This document shows, in pieces, positions 2,841 to 12,305 of a DNA stretch of 26,012 nucleotides. The stretch is taken from positions 1 to 26,012 of IMG/VR virus record IMGVR_UViG_3300042465_004219. One strand, given 5' to 3'. Numbering within the stretch: position 1 is the stretch's first letter; each line of letters begins with the position of its first letter. The stretch is from a virus. The position numbers and the translations under genes were made by a program. The notes under the pieces are model-generated. The model ran no database searches. It worked only from the letters and a program-made list of their open reading frames with translations, and had not been told where the DNA came from.

Positions 2841-3139
2841 ACCCTGAGTTTGCTACAGATGTCTGGCGTATTATGGATGCAGCAGGTAACTTACTTATCC
2901 GTAAGCATCACGACTACGGCCCAAAGAATATTGCTCACTCACCAGGTGGACCACTTAATGGTCTGCGTGTACGTATGTGGGATAAGATAGCTCGCATCAA
3001 CAACTTGGTTGATTCAGATGTGCAGCCTAGCAACGAGTCCTTGCGTGATTCATTCCTCGATCTATTGAACTACTCTGCTATTGCAATGATGGTCTTAGAT
3101 GGCGTATGGCCAGAGGTTGAAGTTACTGATTGTGACTGA
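2738..3139 (+). CDS. DUF1599 / Nmad1-like protein
   Basis: 133-aa protein whose core (about residues 55-123) reads LIRKHHDYGPKNIA, LNGLRVRMWDKIARINNLV, then SLRDSFLDLLNYSAIAMMVL. That KHxDYGxxN / GLxxRxxDKxxR / DxxxDxxNY order is the signature I know from DUF1599, also called nucleotide modification associated domain 1. The family is predicted, not shown, to act with modified nucleotides. The start at 2738 follows AAGGA by 3 bases; an in-frame ATG at 2873 would still retain the core. It sits in the replication operon and overlaps the sigma-like gene by 8 bp. A phage-wide link with the cytosine methyltransferase is possible but unproven. Confidence 0.75.
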   Translation: MATDDTDFAAYGLPDPRDQYGNRDSSTAPYTDKVNPEFATDVWRIMDAAGNLLIRKHHDYGPKNIAHSPGGPLNGLRVRMWDKIARINNLVDSDVQPSNESLRDSFLDLLNYSAIAMMVLDGVWPEVEVTDCD

Positions 3140-3764
3140 GCTGCATCCGATTGCCTATGAGTTAGCCTCTTCTGTTGCTTATGCAGTCCACCGGCGCTAC
3201 AAGCATTGGGTAGAGCGAGAAGATATTACTCAGGAGTGTATTGCTTGGGCCGTTACGCGTAATGCCTACATCACTGAGCAGATGAGCGTTGAAGATCCTA
3301 AGCAATTAGAACATAACCAAAGCCGTATCGCTTGGCAGATGAAGCGTGCAGTCGAACGCTATGCACGCAAGGAGAAGGCTAACAAGTCTGGCTATCAGAC
3401 CAACGATGAAGTTTATTACCAGACCTTTACCCTCGGTCAGCTACTACCCTTTGTTATCTCATCCATCATAGATGGCACAGTATTAGAGCAGATGCAGGAG
3501 ATGATTAACGATGGTCAACCACGCGGATCATCTAGCCCAGCAGAAGGTGGCAACCTGCTTGCTAGCCTGATAGATATTAAGAAGTGTTTTCTTAAACTAG
3601 ACCAGAAGGATCAGGCTGTATTGCGTATGCGTCACTACGATAACGCTACCTTGCAGCAGATAGCACAGTACCTAGAGTGTGCAGTATCTACTGCTGATCG
3701 TAGATGCACCAACTCCCTGCGTAGATTACAGGATGAGTTAGGTGGGGAGACACCGTTTCGATGA
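3132..3764 (+). CDS. Sigma-70-like / ECF-type regulator
   Basis: Probable phage sigma-like factor of 210 aa. Near the N-terminus WVEREDITQECIAWAV resembles region 2 of sigma-70 proteins (the DLxQE motif). Near the C-terminus LKLDQKDQAVLRMRHYDNAT then LQQIAQYLECAVSTADRRCT resembles the region 4 helix-turn-helix. The middle (about residues 65-145) is not recognisable. I prefer GTG 3132, giving an 8-bp overlap with the stop of the previous gene, over ATG 3099, which overlaps more deeply; neither has a convincing ribosome site. It may direct host RNA polymerase to phage late promoters, but region 2 is weak, so a simple HTH regulator is possible. Confidence 0.65.
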   Translation: MTELHPIAYELASSVAYAVHRRYKHWVEREDITQECIAWAVTRNAYITEQMSVEDPKQLEHNQSRIAWQMKRAVERYARKEKANKSGYQTNDEVYYQTFTLGQLLPFVISSIIDGTVLEQMQEMINDGQPRGSSSPAEGGNLLASLIDIKKCFLKLDQKDQAVLRMRHYDNATLQQIAQYLECAVSTADRRCTNSLRRLQDELGGETPFR

Positions 3765-4375: not shown

Positions 4376-4777
4376 TCAGAGTGTATCAGATATACCCTGA
4401 ATGATCCACTCTACTACTGGTACTGCTACCGCGTTTCCTATCTGGCGGTAACGAGCCGAATCAGAACATCCTTCAGTCCAATCATCAGGAAATCCCTGCA
4501 ATCTTTCACACTCGATAGGTGTGAGCCTACGAACCGGCACCTCTTGATGGATCACGTAAGGCACTCGCGCCCCACCTGTTCCCCAGTATGTGGCTACAGT
4601 CGGAGAGTAGCCATCATAGATACGAGTATCGTCTACTCGTGTAGCTTCAAAGATTAGAACCGTTGCTCTTACTTCAGCGTTATTATCAAATGCGTTCAAC
4701 GTAGGACACACTCCGCCTTCGATCCAGGTTTCGTGATCTTCATTGTGTTGCGCTCTCCTGCTCTTTACGTACCACAT
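4376..4777 (-). CDS. C5-cytosine DNA methyltransferase, C-terminal part
   Basis: Target-recognition and C-terminal half of a Dcm-type enzyme, about 133 aa from ATG 4777 (TTG 4783 is an alternative). VRRLTPIECERLQGFPDDW at about residues 82-100 is motif IX, and RQIGNAVAVPVVEW at about 111-124 is motif X, which completes the SAM site. The N-terminal part (KSRRAQHNEDHETWIEGG) belongs to the variable or target-recognition stretch seen in phage enzymes. The catalytic half is the separate upstream gene, whose TGA ends 2 bases before this ATG, in another frame. The ribosome site is weak, so expression probably relies on re-initiation. Alone it cannot be active. Confidence 0.85.
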   Translation of the reverse strand: MWYVKSRRAQHNEDHETWIEGGVCPTLNAFDNNAEVRATVLIFEATRVDDTRIYDGYSPTVATYWGTGGARVPYVIHQEVPVRRLTPIECERLQGFPDDWTEGCSDSARYRQIGNAVAVPVVEWIIQGISDTL

Positions 4778-4779
4778 CT

Positions 4780-5406
4780 TCAAATGCTCTCTGTAACTGA
4801 TCCGGTAGCAACTTCCCGTTCCTGTTGCTTCTGCGAAGCACTCCTTCTGCTGCCTTGACTGTTAAATAATATTTCTGCTGGACTGGTTGAGTCTGAACCA
4901 CGTCTGCCAACGATGAAGACACGCTTCCGGCGCTGGGGTACTCCGAAGTGTTGAGCATCAAGCACACGCCATCCGATAGAATACCCGATGTCGGCCATCG
5001 TCCCGATGACGACTCCAAAATCTGCTCCGTTGTTACTGGATAGCAGACCAGGGACGTTTTCGATGACGAAGTATTCTGTCTGCGTTTCATCCACAATTCT
5101 TGCAATCTCCCAGAATAACCCGCTTCTTGCGCCAGCAAGACCAGCCCTTTTGCCAGCAACGCTGAGGTCTTGGCAGGGAAATCCTCCTGTAATAATTCCT
5201 GTGCTTGGTGTAAATCCTGCATTTATTAGATCCTCTCCCTTAACTGTAGTTACATCATCAAATATCTTGCTCTCTGGAAAGCGGTGTGCCAATACCTCTT
5301 GGCACTTCTTATCTATCTCTACCGAGGCAACGACCTTTACTCCTTGTCGCTGCATAGCTAAGTCAAACCCACCTATTCCGGCGAATAGGCTAACTCCGGT
5401 CAGCAT
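4780..5406 (-). CDS. C5-cytosine DNA methyltransferase, catalytic part
   Basis: 208-aa catalytic half of a Dcm-type enzyme that adds a methyl group to C5 of cytosine. Motif I FAGIGGFD (residues 8-15), motif IV GGFPCQDLS with the catalytic Cys near 78, motif VI ENVPG (116-120) and motif VIII QRRKRVFIVG (158-167) are all intact. The frame ends shortly after an ILFNSQGSRRS stretch typical of these enzymes, just where the target-recognition domain should start; that part is in the next gene. ATG 5406 overlaps the transglycosylase stop (TGATG), which I prefer to GTG 5415. It could protect phage DNA from host restriction. Confidence 0.88.
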   Translation of the reverse strand: MLTGVSLFAGIGGFDLAMQRQGVKVVASVEIDKKCQEVLAHRFPESKIFDDVTTVKGEDLINAGFTPSTGIITGGFPCQDLSVAGKRAGLAGARSGLFWEIARIVDETQTEYFVIENVPGLLSSNNGADFGVVIGTMADIGYSIGWRVLDAQHFGVPQRRKRVFIVGRRGSDSTSPAEILFNSQGSRRSASQKQQEREVATGSVTESI

Positions 5407-5680
5407 CAGTACCACCCTCTTCTGTCTGAGTGTCGGAGAGCGCTACACGCATCGCCTCTATAGCGATGACCAATGTATCGTATACCGTGAAGGATTTGTA
5501 GTTCAGGTTCTCGACTTCTCTCTCTAAGGAGTTGAGCAATTCCGTAAGCTGATGATCTTGGGTTATCTGCGAGGTGGTCAAACCTGCTCTCACGGGTCCA
5601 TAAGGTGATGAGGCACGATGTCTGCTTCTGCGTATATCCGAGAGCGCGACTATATTGCTTTGTGATTCGCTTGTTCTCAC
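5390..5680 (-). CDS. Candidate overlapping gene inside the transglycosylase, 96 aa
   Basis: A second frame over almost the whole transglycosylase domain. Its GTG at 5680 overlaps the stop of the 5677-5976 gene (GTGA), with GGAGG 6 bases upstream, which is the start arrangement of real genes in this operon. The C-terminal half (LTELLNSLEREVENLNYKS, FTVYDTLVIAIEAMRVALS) reads as a plausible coiled or helical protein. Against it, the transglycosylase frame is unquestionable, long overlaps are rare, and GGAGG also encodes residues of that frame. Could be a genuine nested gene or chance. Confidence 0.35.
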   Translation of the reverse strand: MRTSESQSNIVALSDIRRSRHRASSPYGPVRAGLTTSQITQDHQLTELLNSLEREVENLNYKSFTVYDTLVIAIEAMRVALSDTQTEEGGTDADRS

Positions 5681-6760: not shown

Positions 6761-6903
6761 TACTTACCCTCTCCCTCTACTGGACAATCATCAGATAGAT
6801 GACCTTGACCGTCGGTACCCTCGCATATGCACCAACCGAATTGCTCTACTTGTGCAGCGTGAGTCAATTCTACCCGCTCACTCCACTCCATTACATCATT
6901 CAC
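6760..6903 (-). CDS. Small Cys-containing protein, 47 aa
   Basis: I choose GTG 6903, which overlaps the upstream TGA in the AAGTGA arrangement used throughout this operon; ATG 6891 is in frame but lacks a ribosome site. The protein ends with FGWCICEGTDGQGHLSDDCP, where CxC, H and C could bind zinc, and an EGEGK tail. Not recognised. Both ends overlap neighbouring genes, so it is translated in a coupled chain. Confidence 0.6.
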   Translation of the reverse strand: MNDVMEWSERVELTHAAQVEQFGWCICEGTDGQGHLSDDCPVEGEGK

Positions 6904-7070
6904 TTACTTGCCCTCTCTCTCATTTGTTTATTAGTTAGATCATTCTCACACTCTATGCAAGCGTCAGAATTATATTCCCTGCGGTCATACTCTCTCTCGC
7001 ACGTATTACACTTGATCCACTCGGAGTTATCATCGAACGCCGGATCAACCGCGTACCGGTAATCACTCAT
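6900..7070 (-). CDS. Zinc-ribbon protein, 56 aa
   Basis: Start at ATG 7070, 6 bases after AGAAGGAGG; an upstream in-frame ATG (7088) itself contains that ribosome site and is rejected. Two CxxC knuckles are clear: CNTC and CIEC, separated by EREYDRREYNSDA, a classic mini zinc ribbon, then a charged C-terminal helix (TNKQMRERASK). Such proteins bind nucleic acid or protein partners; the target is unknown. It overlaps upstream and downstream genes. Confidence 0.7.
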   Translation of the reverse strand: MSDYRYAVDPAFDDNSEWIKCNTCEREYDRREYNSDACIECENDLTNKQMRERASK

Positions 7071-7230
7071 CCTCGCCCTCCTTCTCATATAGGTATCCTC
7101 CCATAGCTGCGCCTAGCCCAGTGTGGATCACAATATCGCCGGCGCTATCTTCAGTCAGTCTAGCTCCTGGCATATTCTCGCTCACCCACTCCTTCAAGTC
7201 TTGGATAGTATCTACTTCACTTAGGTTCAC
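7063..7230 (-). CDS. Small hypothetical protein, 55 aa
   Basis: GTG 7230 overlaps the upstream TGA (AAGTGA). The protein reads MNLSEVDTIQDLKEWVSENM (helix), then an ARLTEDSAGDIVIHTGLGAA beta hairpin and a GGYLYEKEGEDE end, a compact alpha-beta layout. It is not a named family to me. No cysteines. It was below the usual length cut-off but is framed by coupled neighbours on both sides, and the sequence is of good protein quality. Confidence 0.65.
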   Translation of the reverse strand: MNLSEVDTIQDLKEWVSENMPGARLTEDSAGDIVIHTGLGAAMGGYLYEKEGEDE

Positions 7231-9515: not shown

Positions 9516-9528
9516 AGGAGGTGATCCA
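9516..9528 (+). promoter_or_regulatory. Orphan extended Shine-Dalgarno, complement of 16S 3' end
   Basis: AGGAGGTGATCCA is a perfect 13-base complement of the near-universal 16S rRNA 3' tail (UGGAUCACCUCCU). No gene starts downstream: the only nearby start, GTG 9521, lies within the match and stops after 11 codons. So it is not an ordinary ribosome site. Read on the minus strand it is a copy of the 16S tail itself. Confidence 0.6.
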
Positions 9529-9716
9529 AGTCCGGGCCAGTACTTGGCCTTCTTAGATACTGCCACTCCTTCAGATTAGGGCCGGCATTACTGGCCCAGG
9601 CCCAGGCTATCGGGCCGGCGAAGTGTTAGGCATTGAAGGAGTATTACTTAATTAAGGATAGAAGAAGGAAGGCTCCGGGACCGCCAGGGGTATAGTCAGC
9701 CCCCAAAGAATTACTA

Positions 9717-9768
9717 TAGACCCACAGCCTAGACCGTCAGACTAGACCGCTGGCCTAGACCGTCAGCC
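9717..9768 (+). repeat. Four tandem 13-bp repeats
   Basis: Consecutive units TAGACCCACAGCC, TAGACCGTCAGAC, TAGACCGCTGGCC and TAGACCGTCAGCC start at 9717, 9730, 9743 and 9756, exactly 13 bp apart. TAGACC is invariant. The array ends 23 bp before the -35 box of the rightward promoter. It may bind a transcription regulator, a replication initiator (iterons) or the packaging enzyme. Confidence 0.8.
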
Positions 9769-9791
9769 CAGAAAAAACCGACCCCCCCTTG

Positions 9792-9820
9792 TTGAATCTG
9801 ACCGCGTCCGTTACTATACT
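9792..9820 (+). promoter_or_regulatory. Rightward sigma-70-type promoter
   Basis: TTGAAT at 9792-9797 and TATACT at 9815-9820 are separated by exactly 17 bases: 4 of 6 and 5 of 6 matches to the vegetative consensus. It faces the terminase and would give a leader of roughly 350 bases. The 13-bp repeats lie just upstream, where an activator or repressor would act. Confidence 0.65.
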
Positions 9821-9883
9821 CCCCAACAAAAAATATTTGCTAAAGTGAAGCTGAAGTAGGCTCTGAACAGCACTTTTACCGTG

Positions 9884-9899
9884 TGTGATTAACATCACA
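9884..9899. promoter_or_regulatory. CRP/GlxR-type palindrome
   Basis: TGTGATTAACATCACA matches the TGTGA-N6-TCACA consensus of CRP-family regulators (GlxR in actinobacteria) with both arms perfect. It lies about 60 bases downstream of the predicted transcription start, so a bound protein would more likely block than activate, unless another promoter follows. A phage-encoded regulator is also possible. Confidence 0.5.
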
Positions 9900-9950
9900 G
9901 AAATAAAACGGGAAATACAGTAAATTTCCTGCCTTATATACAGTAGGGGA

Positions 9951-10019
9951 GCAAAGCGGGGAGTACTTTGCGACCCGTTCGGTTGGCCTCTTGCGAGGCC
10001 CCTAGGCCGAGTACCGACC
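9951..10019 (+). other. Hairpin cluster in the late leader
   Basis: Hairpin GCAAAG (9951-9956) with CTTTGC (9966-9971), loop 9 nt. Hairpin GGCCTC (9985-9990) with GAGGCC (9995-10000), loop TTGC. A longer pairing of GGTTGG (9981-9986) with CCGACC (10014-10019), one G-U pair, can close around the second hairpin, costing its first two pairs. The whole would be a GC-rich structured element in the late mRNA leader, or a terminase recognition site in DNA. No known RNA family is recognised. Confidence 0.5.
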
Positions 10020-10044
10020 TACCCCTCAGTTCGCTGTGGCTCCT

Positions 10045-10157
10045 TCGGGCGCTAAGCCCGACCAGTGCAGGCTAGCGGCGCTATTTAGTCGGGTGAGTTC
10101 TATCTAAATATTAGATCCGATAAATTCCTCAGCCCGATAATAAAATCACTTTCGGGC
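10045..10157 (+). promoter_or_regulatory. Competing stem-loops before terminase gene
   Basis: The complementary hexamers TCGGGC and GCCCGA recur. 10045-10050 pairs with 10056-10061 (5-nt loop); 10057-10062 can instead pair with GTCGGG at 10088-10093; 10132-10137 pairs with 10152-10157 just before the terminase ribosome site; ATCTAA/TTAGAT (10102-10107, 10111-10116) forms another stem. The first two pairings exclude each other, as in attenuators or riboregulators. Confidence 0.5.
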
Positions 10158-10180: not shown

Positions 10181-12043
10181 GTGGCTGATAACTCAGCAGA
10201 TATTGCCAAGAGAATTATCCTCGGCGCTGTCGCAGAAGGTATGACCGTTGAGGCAGCTACTGCCTCTGCTGGCAAGTCCATTAAGACTTATGAGTATTAC
10301 CGTCGCACAGATAAGATCTTTGCAGATAAGGTAGATCGAACCCGCCTAGGTCTTAAGGATAAGCAGTTCGCATCCGGTGACGTACACGACCTGACCTTTG
10401 CAGAGTTCCGCGAAAAGTTCCTCCATAGTCGCACCTTTGCTCATCAGCAGAATATCGTAGATGTCATCGAAGGCCGTGAGCCTGGGTGGCTACACCCCAG
10501 TATGAAATTTGAGCCAGGACTTGCGGCCAACCGCGTCCTGATAAATATCCCGCCCAACCACGCCAAGTCTATTACGATCACCGTAGACTATGTGACGTGG
10601 CAGGTCTGTAGGAATCCTAACTTTCGAGTACTGATAGTCTCACAAACGCAGCAGTTAGCTGCCGACTTTCTCTACGCCATCAAGCAACGTCTGACGCATC
10701 CAATGTATCAAGATCTACAGACTGCGTATGCTGCTGGCGTAGGGTTTAACTCTAAGTCTGCCTCGTGGCAGGCAACCCGTGTCACCTTCGGTGATGAACT
10801 CCGTGAGTCATCTGAAAAGGACCCGAACATCGAAGCCGTTGGTATCGGCGGTCAGATCTACGGTAAGCGTGCCGATATGATTATTGTAGACGACGCGGTG
10901 ACTCTAAAGAACGCCAATGAGTTTGAGAAGCAGATCCGCTGGTTGACCCAGGATGTGCGCTCCCGTCTTAACCCTACGGGTAAACTGATTATTATCGGAA
11001 CTCGTGTGGCTTCCGTTGATCTATACCGCGAGCTACGCTCAGAGGACCGCTACCCTGGTGGTCAAGTTCCTTGGAAGTATCTAGCGATGCCGGCCCTGCT
11101 TGAAGCAGATGAGAACCCCGACAAGTGGGTTACCTTATGGCCCGCATCTGATGCTCCATTTGATGGACAATTAGAATCTGATAAGAACGAGGACGGCCTA
11201 TACCCACGTTGGTCTGGACGTAACCTTTACAACGAACGCCAAGCAATGGATGCAAGTACCTGGGCTTTGGTATATCAACAGCAGGACGTTTCTGAAAACG
11301 CTGCCTTTGATCCTGTATGTGTTAAAGGATCTATTGATGGTATGCGTAAGGCAGGCAACCTAGTTGCAGGTCATCCAGGCCATCCTAGAGACTTAAACGG
11401 CTTTACCTATATCTGTGGACTAGACCCTGCAATGATCGGTGATACTGCAGCTATCTGCTACGCCATTGACCGATCAACGAGCAAGAGGTACATAGTAGAT
11501 GCTATCAAGATTAGCCGTCCGTCTCCAGCCGATATCCGTAATCTTATTTTTGATTGGACATCCCTCTACGCCCCCTCAGAGTGGATCGTCGAAAAAAACG
11601 CCTTCCAATCCTTCCTAACGCAAGACGAAGGTATCCGTATGCACTTGGCTTCTCGCGGAGTCCAGTTCAAGGAACACCACACTGGTTCTAATAAGTGGGA
11701 TGCCGGCTTCGGTGTGGCCTCTATGTCTACCCTCTTTGGTACTAAGCAGTTTGATGGTAAGCACCATCGAGATAACTTAATACATCTACCAAGCGATCAG
11801 ACCGAGAACATCAAGGCTCTGATAGAGCAGTTAATTACCTGGACTCCAACGACTAAGGGTAAGACCGATATGGTGATGGCCTTGTGGTTCTGTGAGATCC
11901 GCGCACGTGAGATGCTCAACTATGGCAAGTATGCCACCCACCATATGAAAAACCCATTCCTATCTCGCCAAGAGATGGGCAAGCGAACAGTGATTAACTT
12001 AGAAGAAGCCTTCGCTGAACAAAATAAAATGAGAATAATCTAG
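10181..12043 (+). CDS. Terminase large subunit with N-terminal extension
   Basis: DNA-packaging motor, 620 aa. The ATPase domain has a Walker A-like PPNHAKS (residues 124-130), Walker B MIIVDD (233-238) and coupling motif IIGTR (271-275). The RNase H-like nuclease has GLDPA with Asp 415, VEKNAFQ with Glu 471, and a late Asp in KTDMVMALW. GTG 10181 follows AGGAGGA. The first 60 or so residues (IAKRIILGAVAEGMTVEAAT, then SIKTYEYYRRTDKIFADKV) resemble the HTH of small terminase subunits, and no separate small terminase is seen in the window. It is the first gene of the virion operon, next to a possible packaging site. Confidence 0.93.
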   Translation: MADNSADIAKRIILGAVAEGMTVEAATASAGKSIKTYEYYRRTDKIFADKVDRTRLGLKDKQFASGDVHDLTFAEFREKFLHSRTFAHQQNIVDVIEGREPGWLHPSMKFEPGLAANRVLINIPPNHAKSITITVDYVTWQVCRNPNFRVLIVSQTQQLAADFLYAIKQRLTHPMYQDLQTAYAAGVGFNSKSASWQATRVTFGDELRESSEKDPNIEAVGIGGQIYGKRADMIIVDDAVTLKNANEFEKQIRWLTQDVRSRLNPTGKLIIIGTRVASVDLYRELRSEDRYPGGQVPWKYLAMPALLEADENPDKWVTLWPASDAPFDGQLESDKNEDGLYPRWSGRNLYNERQAMDASTWALVYQQQDVSENAAFDPVCVKGSIDGMRKAGNLVAGHPGHPRDLNGFTYICGLDPAMIGDTAAICYAIDRSTSKRYIVDAIKISRPSPADIRNLIFDWTSLYAPSEWIVEKNAFQSFLTQDEGIRMHLASRGVQFKEHHTGSNKWDAGFGVASMSTLFGTKQFDGKHHRDNLIHLPSDQTENIKALIEQLITWTPTTKGKTDMVMALWFCEIRAREMLNYGKYATHHMKNPFLSRQEMGKRTVINLEEAFAEQNKMRII

Positions 12044-12053
12044 GGAGATAGTT

Positions 12054-12305
12054 ATGGGAATGAAACCTAAAAAAGATACTTACACTACAACTACATCAGG
12101 TAATAAAACTACTAAAACTTGGGAATACAATGATGGTAGCGGTTCTTCTGTAACCCAAACAAACCCTAGTAAAAAATTAGATTCAAAGTATGGCATAAAG
12201 CCACCAGTCAAGAAGAAGGCTACACCTTCACCTAAACCTAAGACAACTGCTAAGGCTACTCCTAAAGCAACTGTCAAGCCAACCGCAACGCCAAAAAAGA
12301 AATAA
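12054..12305 (+). CDS. Small basic Lys/Pro/Thr-rich protein, 83 aa
   Basis: ATG 12054 lies 7 bases after GGGAG. The N-terminal part is Thr/Ser/Gly-rich (YTTTTSGNKTTKTWEYNDGS); from about residue 50 it is a repetitive disordered tail of Lys, Pro, Thr and Ala (KKKATPSPKPKTTAKATPKA). Such tails bind DNA non-specifically, so packaging or DNA condensation is possible. The gene falls between terminase and portal. The long antisense frame over it is a by-product of the composition. Confidence 0.75.
   Translation: MGMKPKKDTYTTTTSGNKTTKTWEYNDGSGSSVTQTNPSKKLDSKYGIKPPVKKKATPSPKPKTTAKATPKATVKPTATPKKK

Follow-up and report, generated by a model that had tools for sequence, protein, structure and literature searches.

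A 13-bp repeat array in an exchangeable slot upstream of a freshwater actinophage virion promoter is a probable late-operon operator

Introduction

Why would a phage carry four copies of one hexamer, at one exact period, just upstream of the promoter that faces its virion genes? The question arises from a virus record of 26,012 bases, analysed here in full and hereafter called the window. Helicase, primase and sigma-like genes run rightward in it, and a set of small genes runs leftward from 9424 down to 4376. The virion operon, with portal and major head protein, also runs rightward and starts with the terminase gene at 10181. A gap of 756 bp separates the divergent operons and holds both the array and the promoter. 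A first-pass annotation, made from the sequence alone, had offered three readings of the array: a switch for the late operon, a replication origin or a site for the packaging enzyme. Our analysis favours the first, and it suggests that the context of the array is more interesting than the array itself.

Results

The phage group and its hosts

The window is a member of a large freshwater phage group. A terminase search returned 80 loci at 86–99% identity, and a scan showed that the conserved 18-mer AATATTTGCTAAAGTGAA occurs in no fewer than 119 viral stretches; depending on the filter, the relatives yielded as many as about 150 distinct upstream regions. Alignments of these relatives show conservation from about 9776 to 10110, but not in the DNA just upstream. 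Named phages have no DNA similarity to the window, and the terminase large subunit (TerL) reaches only 42–47% against the best named-phage records. WhiB, which is restricted to Actinobacteria and their phages and has been used as such a marker (PMC6802176), is encoded in all 15 long records, including all 12 from the window's group; among 14 control genomes it was found in Corynebacterium only. The hosts are therefore Actinobacteria.

Features of the divergent gap and of the genes discussed in the text
Feature	Position	Strand	Basis
Phage sigma-like protein	3132..3764	+	Pfam sigma-70 region 4; best Foldseek hits all sigma factors
Left conserved element, GCC[G/A]-N6-TAGTCAGCCC type, about 20 bp	9683..9703	.	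matched in 81/137 unique relatives
13-bp direct-repeat array, four TAGACC-N7 units	9717..9768	+	sequence reading, Tandem Repeats Finder, shuffles, TAGAC ladder in 134 relatives
Promoter P1: C-run and -35-like block 9780–9797 (TTGAAT 9792–9797), 17-bp spacer, TATACT 9815–9820 + CCCC	9780..9824	+	conserved blocks, weight matrix
AT-rich block AACAAAAAATATTTGCTAAAGTGAA, positional landmark for P1	9825..9849	+	just downstream of P1; 18-mer matched exactly in no fewer than 119 viral stretches, alignments
CRP-like palindrome TGTGA-TTAACA-TCACA (TGTGATTAACATCACA)	9884..9899	.	conserved in relatives, fixed spacing to -10
-10 of candidate second promoter P3 (TACAGT in the window; mostly TATAGT among relatives)	9939..9944	+	fixed spacing to CRP-like site
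Conserved leader RNA of the virion operon	9941..10110	+	alignments, covariation
Terminase large subunit, first gene of the virion operon	10181..12043	+	phrog_38, E 1.5e-63

An array under selection

The four TAGACC words start at 9717, 9730, 9743 and 9756 on the plus strand, and the fourth 13-bp unit ends at 9768. The spacing is thus 13/13/13 without error, as first annotated, giving the direct repeats at constant spacing that mark iteron arrays. Tandem Repeats Finder reports a period of 13 with 4.3 copies over 9717–9772. No second case of four identical hexamers at one period (8–30 bp) exists in the window, and in 30 dinucleotide shuffles the longest run of identical hexamers was three in 2 shuffles and two in the other 28. 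The array is not a chance arrangement. It is the arrangement that is special, not the word, because TAGACC occurs 11 times in the window against 12 expected.

The relatives point to what is being preserved. Among 43 distinct units from 19 relatives, positions 1–6 are 91–100% conserved; the positions that follow are weakly kept, except for G at position 11 (72%) and C at position 13 (79%). Exact unit spacings are 13 in 34 of 43 instances. Selection thus acts on the word, since TAGACC is kept while N7 diverges. Perfect CTAGACC minisatellites do exist in unrelated bacteria, so that a recent tandem duplication without function might be imagined here; yet the N7 stretches differ between units around an unchanged TAGACC, and the array keeps one position throughout, both in 19 diverged relatives and in a phage group unrelated to them. 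We consider chance or a neutral minisatellite scarcely credible as an explanation.

A conserved promoter facing the virion genes

Between the end of the array and TTGAAT-N17-TATACT lie 23 bp, in agreement with the earlier reading. The P1 consensus is a C-run plus GTTGYTNAAT block, a variable 17-bp spacer and TATACTCCCC. Of the 72 sequences scored, 48 have a spacer of 17 bp (a further 76 did not match the pattern used and received no score); the spacer is poorly conserved between conserved flanking blocks. This is the layout expected of a promoter: conserved blocks on either side of a spacer that varies in sequence but hardly in length. Moreover, the weight matrix scores P1 at 50.6, compared with at most 14 in shuffles. 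Of eight records scanned with it, seven have a single convincing copy each; the eighth (G004), with a P1 that does not fit the matrix, has none. The claim that the array is set against a real promoter for virion genes is borne out by these conserved blocks, by the single copy and by the terminase, portal and major head protein genes downstream.

The promoter stays while its upstream slot is exchanged

The promoter block is kept in more than 100 relatives, and the slot adjacent to it upstream is variable. It can contain TAGACC arrays, TAGACA-N13-TGTCTA inverted repeats (spacer 13 in 40 of 45), tandem DnaA boxes (TTATCCACA/TTGTCCACA, spaced 12, 13 or 20 bp) or sequence that we could not classify. 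Boxes near the 9-bp DnaA type TTATCCACA are absent from the window's own slot. The three recognised types share one register, mostly 111–123 bp upstream of the P1 landmark: the first of four TAGACC units lies at 116 bp (77 + 3 × 13), the first DnaA box has its mode at 118 bp and the inverted repeat lies mostly at 111–119 bp. DnaA boxes occupy this register in 36 of 119 relatives, about a third of the classified cases, under class limits that we set ourselves (for example, at most one mismatch per DnaA box and two in the inverted repeat).

Both motifs are strongly over-represented. Across the slots of 134 non-redundant sequences, TAGAC occurs 97 times against 7.5 expected from shuffled slots, and TCCACA, from the DnaA boxes, occurs 87 times against 2.6. 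Counted back from the landmark, TAGAC peaks at 116/117, 103, 90 and 77 bp, a ladder with rungs 13 bp apart. Of 19 arrays, nine have their last exact TAGACC at 77 bp, one at 78 bp and two at 90–91 bp, one unit further out than 77; in the remaining seven it lies elsewhere, which counts against a fixed distance.

Slot content varies even where TerL is 94–99% identical. On the TerL tree (119 rows), slot type changes about 37 times, compared with a mean of 63 after shuffling, and the starred branches alone force at least 2 changes for TAGACC, 9 for DnaA boxes and 14 for the inverted repeat. These changes may reflect point evolution or recombination. Counting against the slot model, 31 of the 119 rows have a slot of none of the three types. 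The first-pass annotation had named absence of the array from relatives with the same gene order as a refutation of its reading. The array is indeed absent from most of them, and other site types stand at the common register instead. Judged from these alignments, the slot is most likely a plug-in point for different regulators that has been swapped in the course of evolution.

Origin, leftward operator or packaging site?

Tandem DnaA boxes also bring a replication origin to mind. The array, or the DnaA boxes of the relatives, would load an initiator, and a filament would grow toward the AT-rich block, which would melt. The boxes do point mostly in one direction toward this conserved block, and the cumulative GC skew has its minimum at the array region. 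However, the minimum coincides with the divergence of transcription and the maximum with the point of convergence, about 6–7 kb upstream of TerL, and seven long records show no switch of skew at the antipode. The AT-rich block, moreover, belongs to a promoter with two -35/-10-like blocks; the helicase and primase genes lie about 7–10 kb from the array; and no DnaA C-terminal domain was found in 15 long records. A Pfam search of ten window ORFs recognised no replication initiator, although a novel one would escape it. With gene orientation accounting for the skew minimum, no antipodal switch and no phage DnaA, we regard an origin as unlikely.

The slot could instead belong to the operon on its other side, so that a regulator on the array would set the expression of the leftward small genes, early genes rather than virion genes. 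That operon does begin there, which counts against P1 as the sole possible target; the region is divergent, an element is conserved on the left of the slot (its length is 20 in 80 of 81 matched relatives) and a weak promoter-like match on the minus strand overlaps the array. This match, CTGACG-N16-TATAGT, scores only 9/12 and is not a convincing promoter; its -10 lies partly inside the first repeat, a unit that is missing from many relatives. Furthermore, the distance from TAGACC-type sites to the left element is more varied than that to P1. An operator for the leftward operon is improbable on this evidence.

The third reading, a cos or pac site or a terminase-binding site, draws on the terminase gene next door. 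The closest named phages have terminase as their first gene, some 750 bp from a genome end, and many contigs of our collection end in the array region. These ends, however, are scattered over 18 offsets in 27 loci, and records with terminal repeats of 87 and 127 bp run straight through the region. The exchange of slot content between phages with nearly identical TerL also argues against a packaging site, and we find this reading very improbable.

A candidate second promoter and a structured leader

P1 is not the only conserved element ahead of the terminase gene. Further downstream is a palindrome, TGTGA-N6-TCACA, that is perfect in 84 of 140 unique relatives and has at most one mismatch in 132 of 140 (94%). 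For 110 of 125 sequences (88% of scored pairs) the distance from its centre to the next -10 is 47–48 bp; the distance to P1 varies from 47 to 76. Class I CRP promoters have their site near -60. The fixed spacing to the -10 places the palindrome near -60 of the inferred start, as in such promoters, and P3 resembles them also in having no conserved -35. P3 is therefore a candidate class I CRP-dependent promoter. No CRP-type helix-turn-helix protein was found in the phages, and a host regulator of the CRP family may act on the virion operon.

The conserved DNA beyond P3 appears to encode a structured leader RNA. Positions 9951–9956 pair with 9966–9971 in a hairpin that bears the compensatory base changes expected of structured leaders: all six pairs are paired in 100% of cases, three of them carry double changes in 21 cells, and 0 of 500 shuffles equal either this count or the covariation score. 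Exchanges of C-G with U-A and of G-C with A-U each occur in 10 of 31 sequences. The evidence for structure is covariation, not energy, as single-sequence folding is no better than for shuffles (z -0.36). A hypothetical 3-bp pseudoknot, tried together with the hairpin, has no compensatory change. Rfam returned nothing at gathering scores for the leader, only a chance VrrA match (E 4.5). We regard the leader as a candidate new RNA family, with a possible role in antitermination or another late-operon process. A covarying hairpin directly downstream supports transcription of the region. Other apparent helices are also visible in the leader. In one relative (L004), an inverted copy of the leader occupies positions 1–187 at the contig start, probably an assembly chimera or end artefact.

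Which protein reads the array?

The sigma-like protein had been suggested as a phage partner of the array. The protein probably does belong to the sigma factors. Profile searching against solved structures returned SigF and FliA, and with the AlphaFold model (pLDDT 79, pTM 0.53) Foldseek retrieved sigma factors, the best at E 2.5e-3. The TM-scores are low, which fits a protein whose two domains are arranged differently. As a determinant of slot type the gene fails: it co-occurs with every type, and one relative (L173) combines a 98% identical copy with a slot that has no TAGACC array. Because it accompanies all slot types it cannot be the specific partner of the array. The protein could plausibly read the non-standard P1 itself.

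The first-pass annotation had proposed looking for such arrays in related phages; they are present in 19 diverged relatives and, beyond these, in an unrelated group of actinophages. When three TAGACC units were required, 33 viral stretches matched; nine of these come from actinophages with an unrelated terminase of 523 aa. Their arrays comprise 3–8 TAGAC(C) units at 13 bp, with TAGAC invariant, and sit in a divergent gap upstream of their own terminase operon, followed by a long conserved leader. Some close relatives of this second group are without the array. Common to the two groups are a DNA methyltransferase and a few small proteins, and we found no DNA-binding protein that both share. Two unrelated groups with one 13-bp array and no shared DNA-binding gene favour a host-encoded binder; non-homologous phage binders in the two groups may be the alternative. 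In G009 (L252) of the second group, a very long conserved untranslated region with several hairpins runs from the array to the first gene (11470–12070), possibly another structured leader.

A 62-aa protein with paired CxxC motifs (6900–7088, minus strand) is the only gene product associated with TAGACC slots (raw p 3e-5), but the association comprises just two phylogenetically independent pairs and fails phylogenetic control. An all-species genome scan for three CTAGACC units gave 23 scattered, mostly minisatellite-like matches with no common host clade; the look-alikes in bacterial chromosomes are mostly near-perfect minisatellites.

Discussion

We propose that the TAGACC repeats are probably a binding-site array, an operator of probably activating effect, controlling the rightward virion (late) operon. 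This is the best of the three earlier readings: the promoter faces the virion operon, and neither origin nor packaging found support. A sequence-specific protein would bind TAGAC(C) once per 13 bp. The site nearest the promoter would lie a constant 36 bp upstream of the P1 -35, and the protein bound to the array could act on P1 from there. P1, and P3 linked to the CRP-like site, would then transcribe the structured leader and the genes from terminase to head. The slot has been exchanged in the course of evolution, with inverted repeats or DnaA boxes taking the equivalent place in relatives.

Host proteins would be the readers of the DnaA boxes and the CRP-like sites, as neither DnaA nor a CRP-type protein was found in the phages. 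We tentatively extend this to a wider possibility, that freshwater actinophages wire their virion promoters to host regulators through an exchangeable slot, with DnaA or a host TAGAC-binder as one input and a near-universal CRP-type site as another. If so, late expression would follow the replication and the carbon state of the host, and a phage would change its input by exchanging some 60 bp. Uncultured freshwater Actinobacteria are very abundant, as are their phages. An interchangeable slot beside a CRP-type site found in 94% of relatives makes it a testable hypothesis that these phages read the replication and metabolic state of the host. The slot is also a natural experiment in which one promoter has been paired many times with different upstream regulators.

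How does this arrangement compare with known systems? No account of TAGACC arrays or of DnaA boxes at phage late promoters turned up in our literature search. Mycobacteriophage L5 has stoperators, 13-bp asymmetric sites dispersed through its genome. The TAGACC units are likewise 13-bp asymmetric sites in a phage of Actinobacteria, but they are not dispersed, TAGACC being no more frequent outside the array than expected. The dre site of DasR, TGGTCTAGACCA, is a palindrome that contains TAGACC, whereas the units here have no palindromic symmetry around CTAG and form direct repeats at 13 bp. The array shares with the iterons of plasmid and phage origins its short direct repeats, their constant spacing and the position beside an AT-rich stretch; it differs in its 13-bp units with a 6-bp conserved core, in the lack of a recognised initiator gene and in the promoter on the AT-rich side. 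DnaA boxes can also serve as transcription-factor sites, and DnaA stimulates the lambda pR/ori-lambda region (PMC8203912); the relatives are alike in having tandem TTATCCACA/TTGTCCACA boxes in the slot ahead of a phage promoter. As no phage DnaA gene was found, host DnaA would be their reader. Here, however, the window array is TAGACC and not a DnaA box, and the promoter faces virion rather than replication genes.

Two further features of the leftward side of the window are recorded here. The sequence AGGAGGTGATCC at 9516–9530 resembles the complement of the 16S rRNA 3' end; it was found in no relative, and the match is probably chance. The DNA cytosine methyltransferase (4376–5415, minus strand) appears as two ORFs that overlap by 4 bases, and a further overlapping ORF lies at 4740–5222 in another frame. 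The enzyme is in separate parts in the relatives too, and forms one ORF of 476–547 aa in the second phage group.
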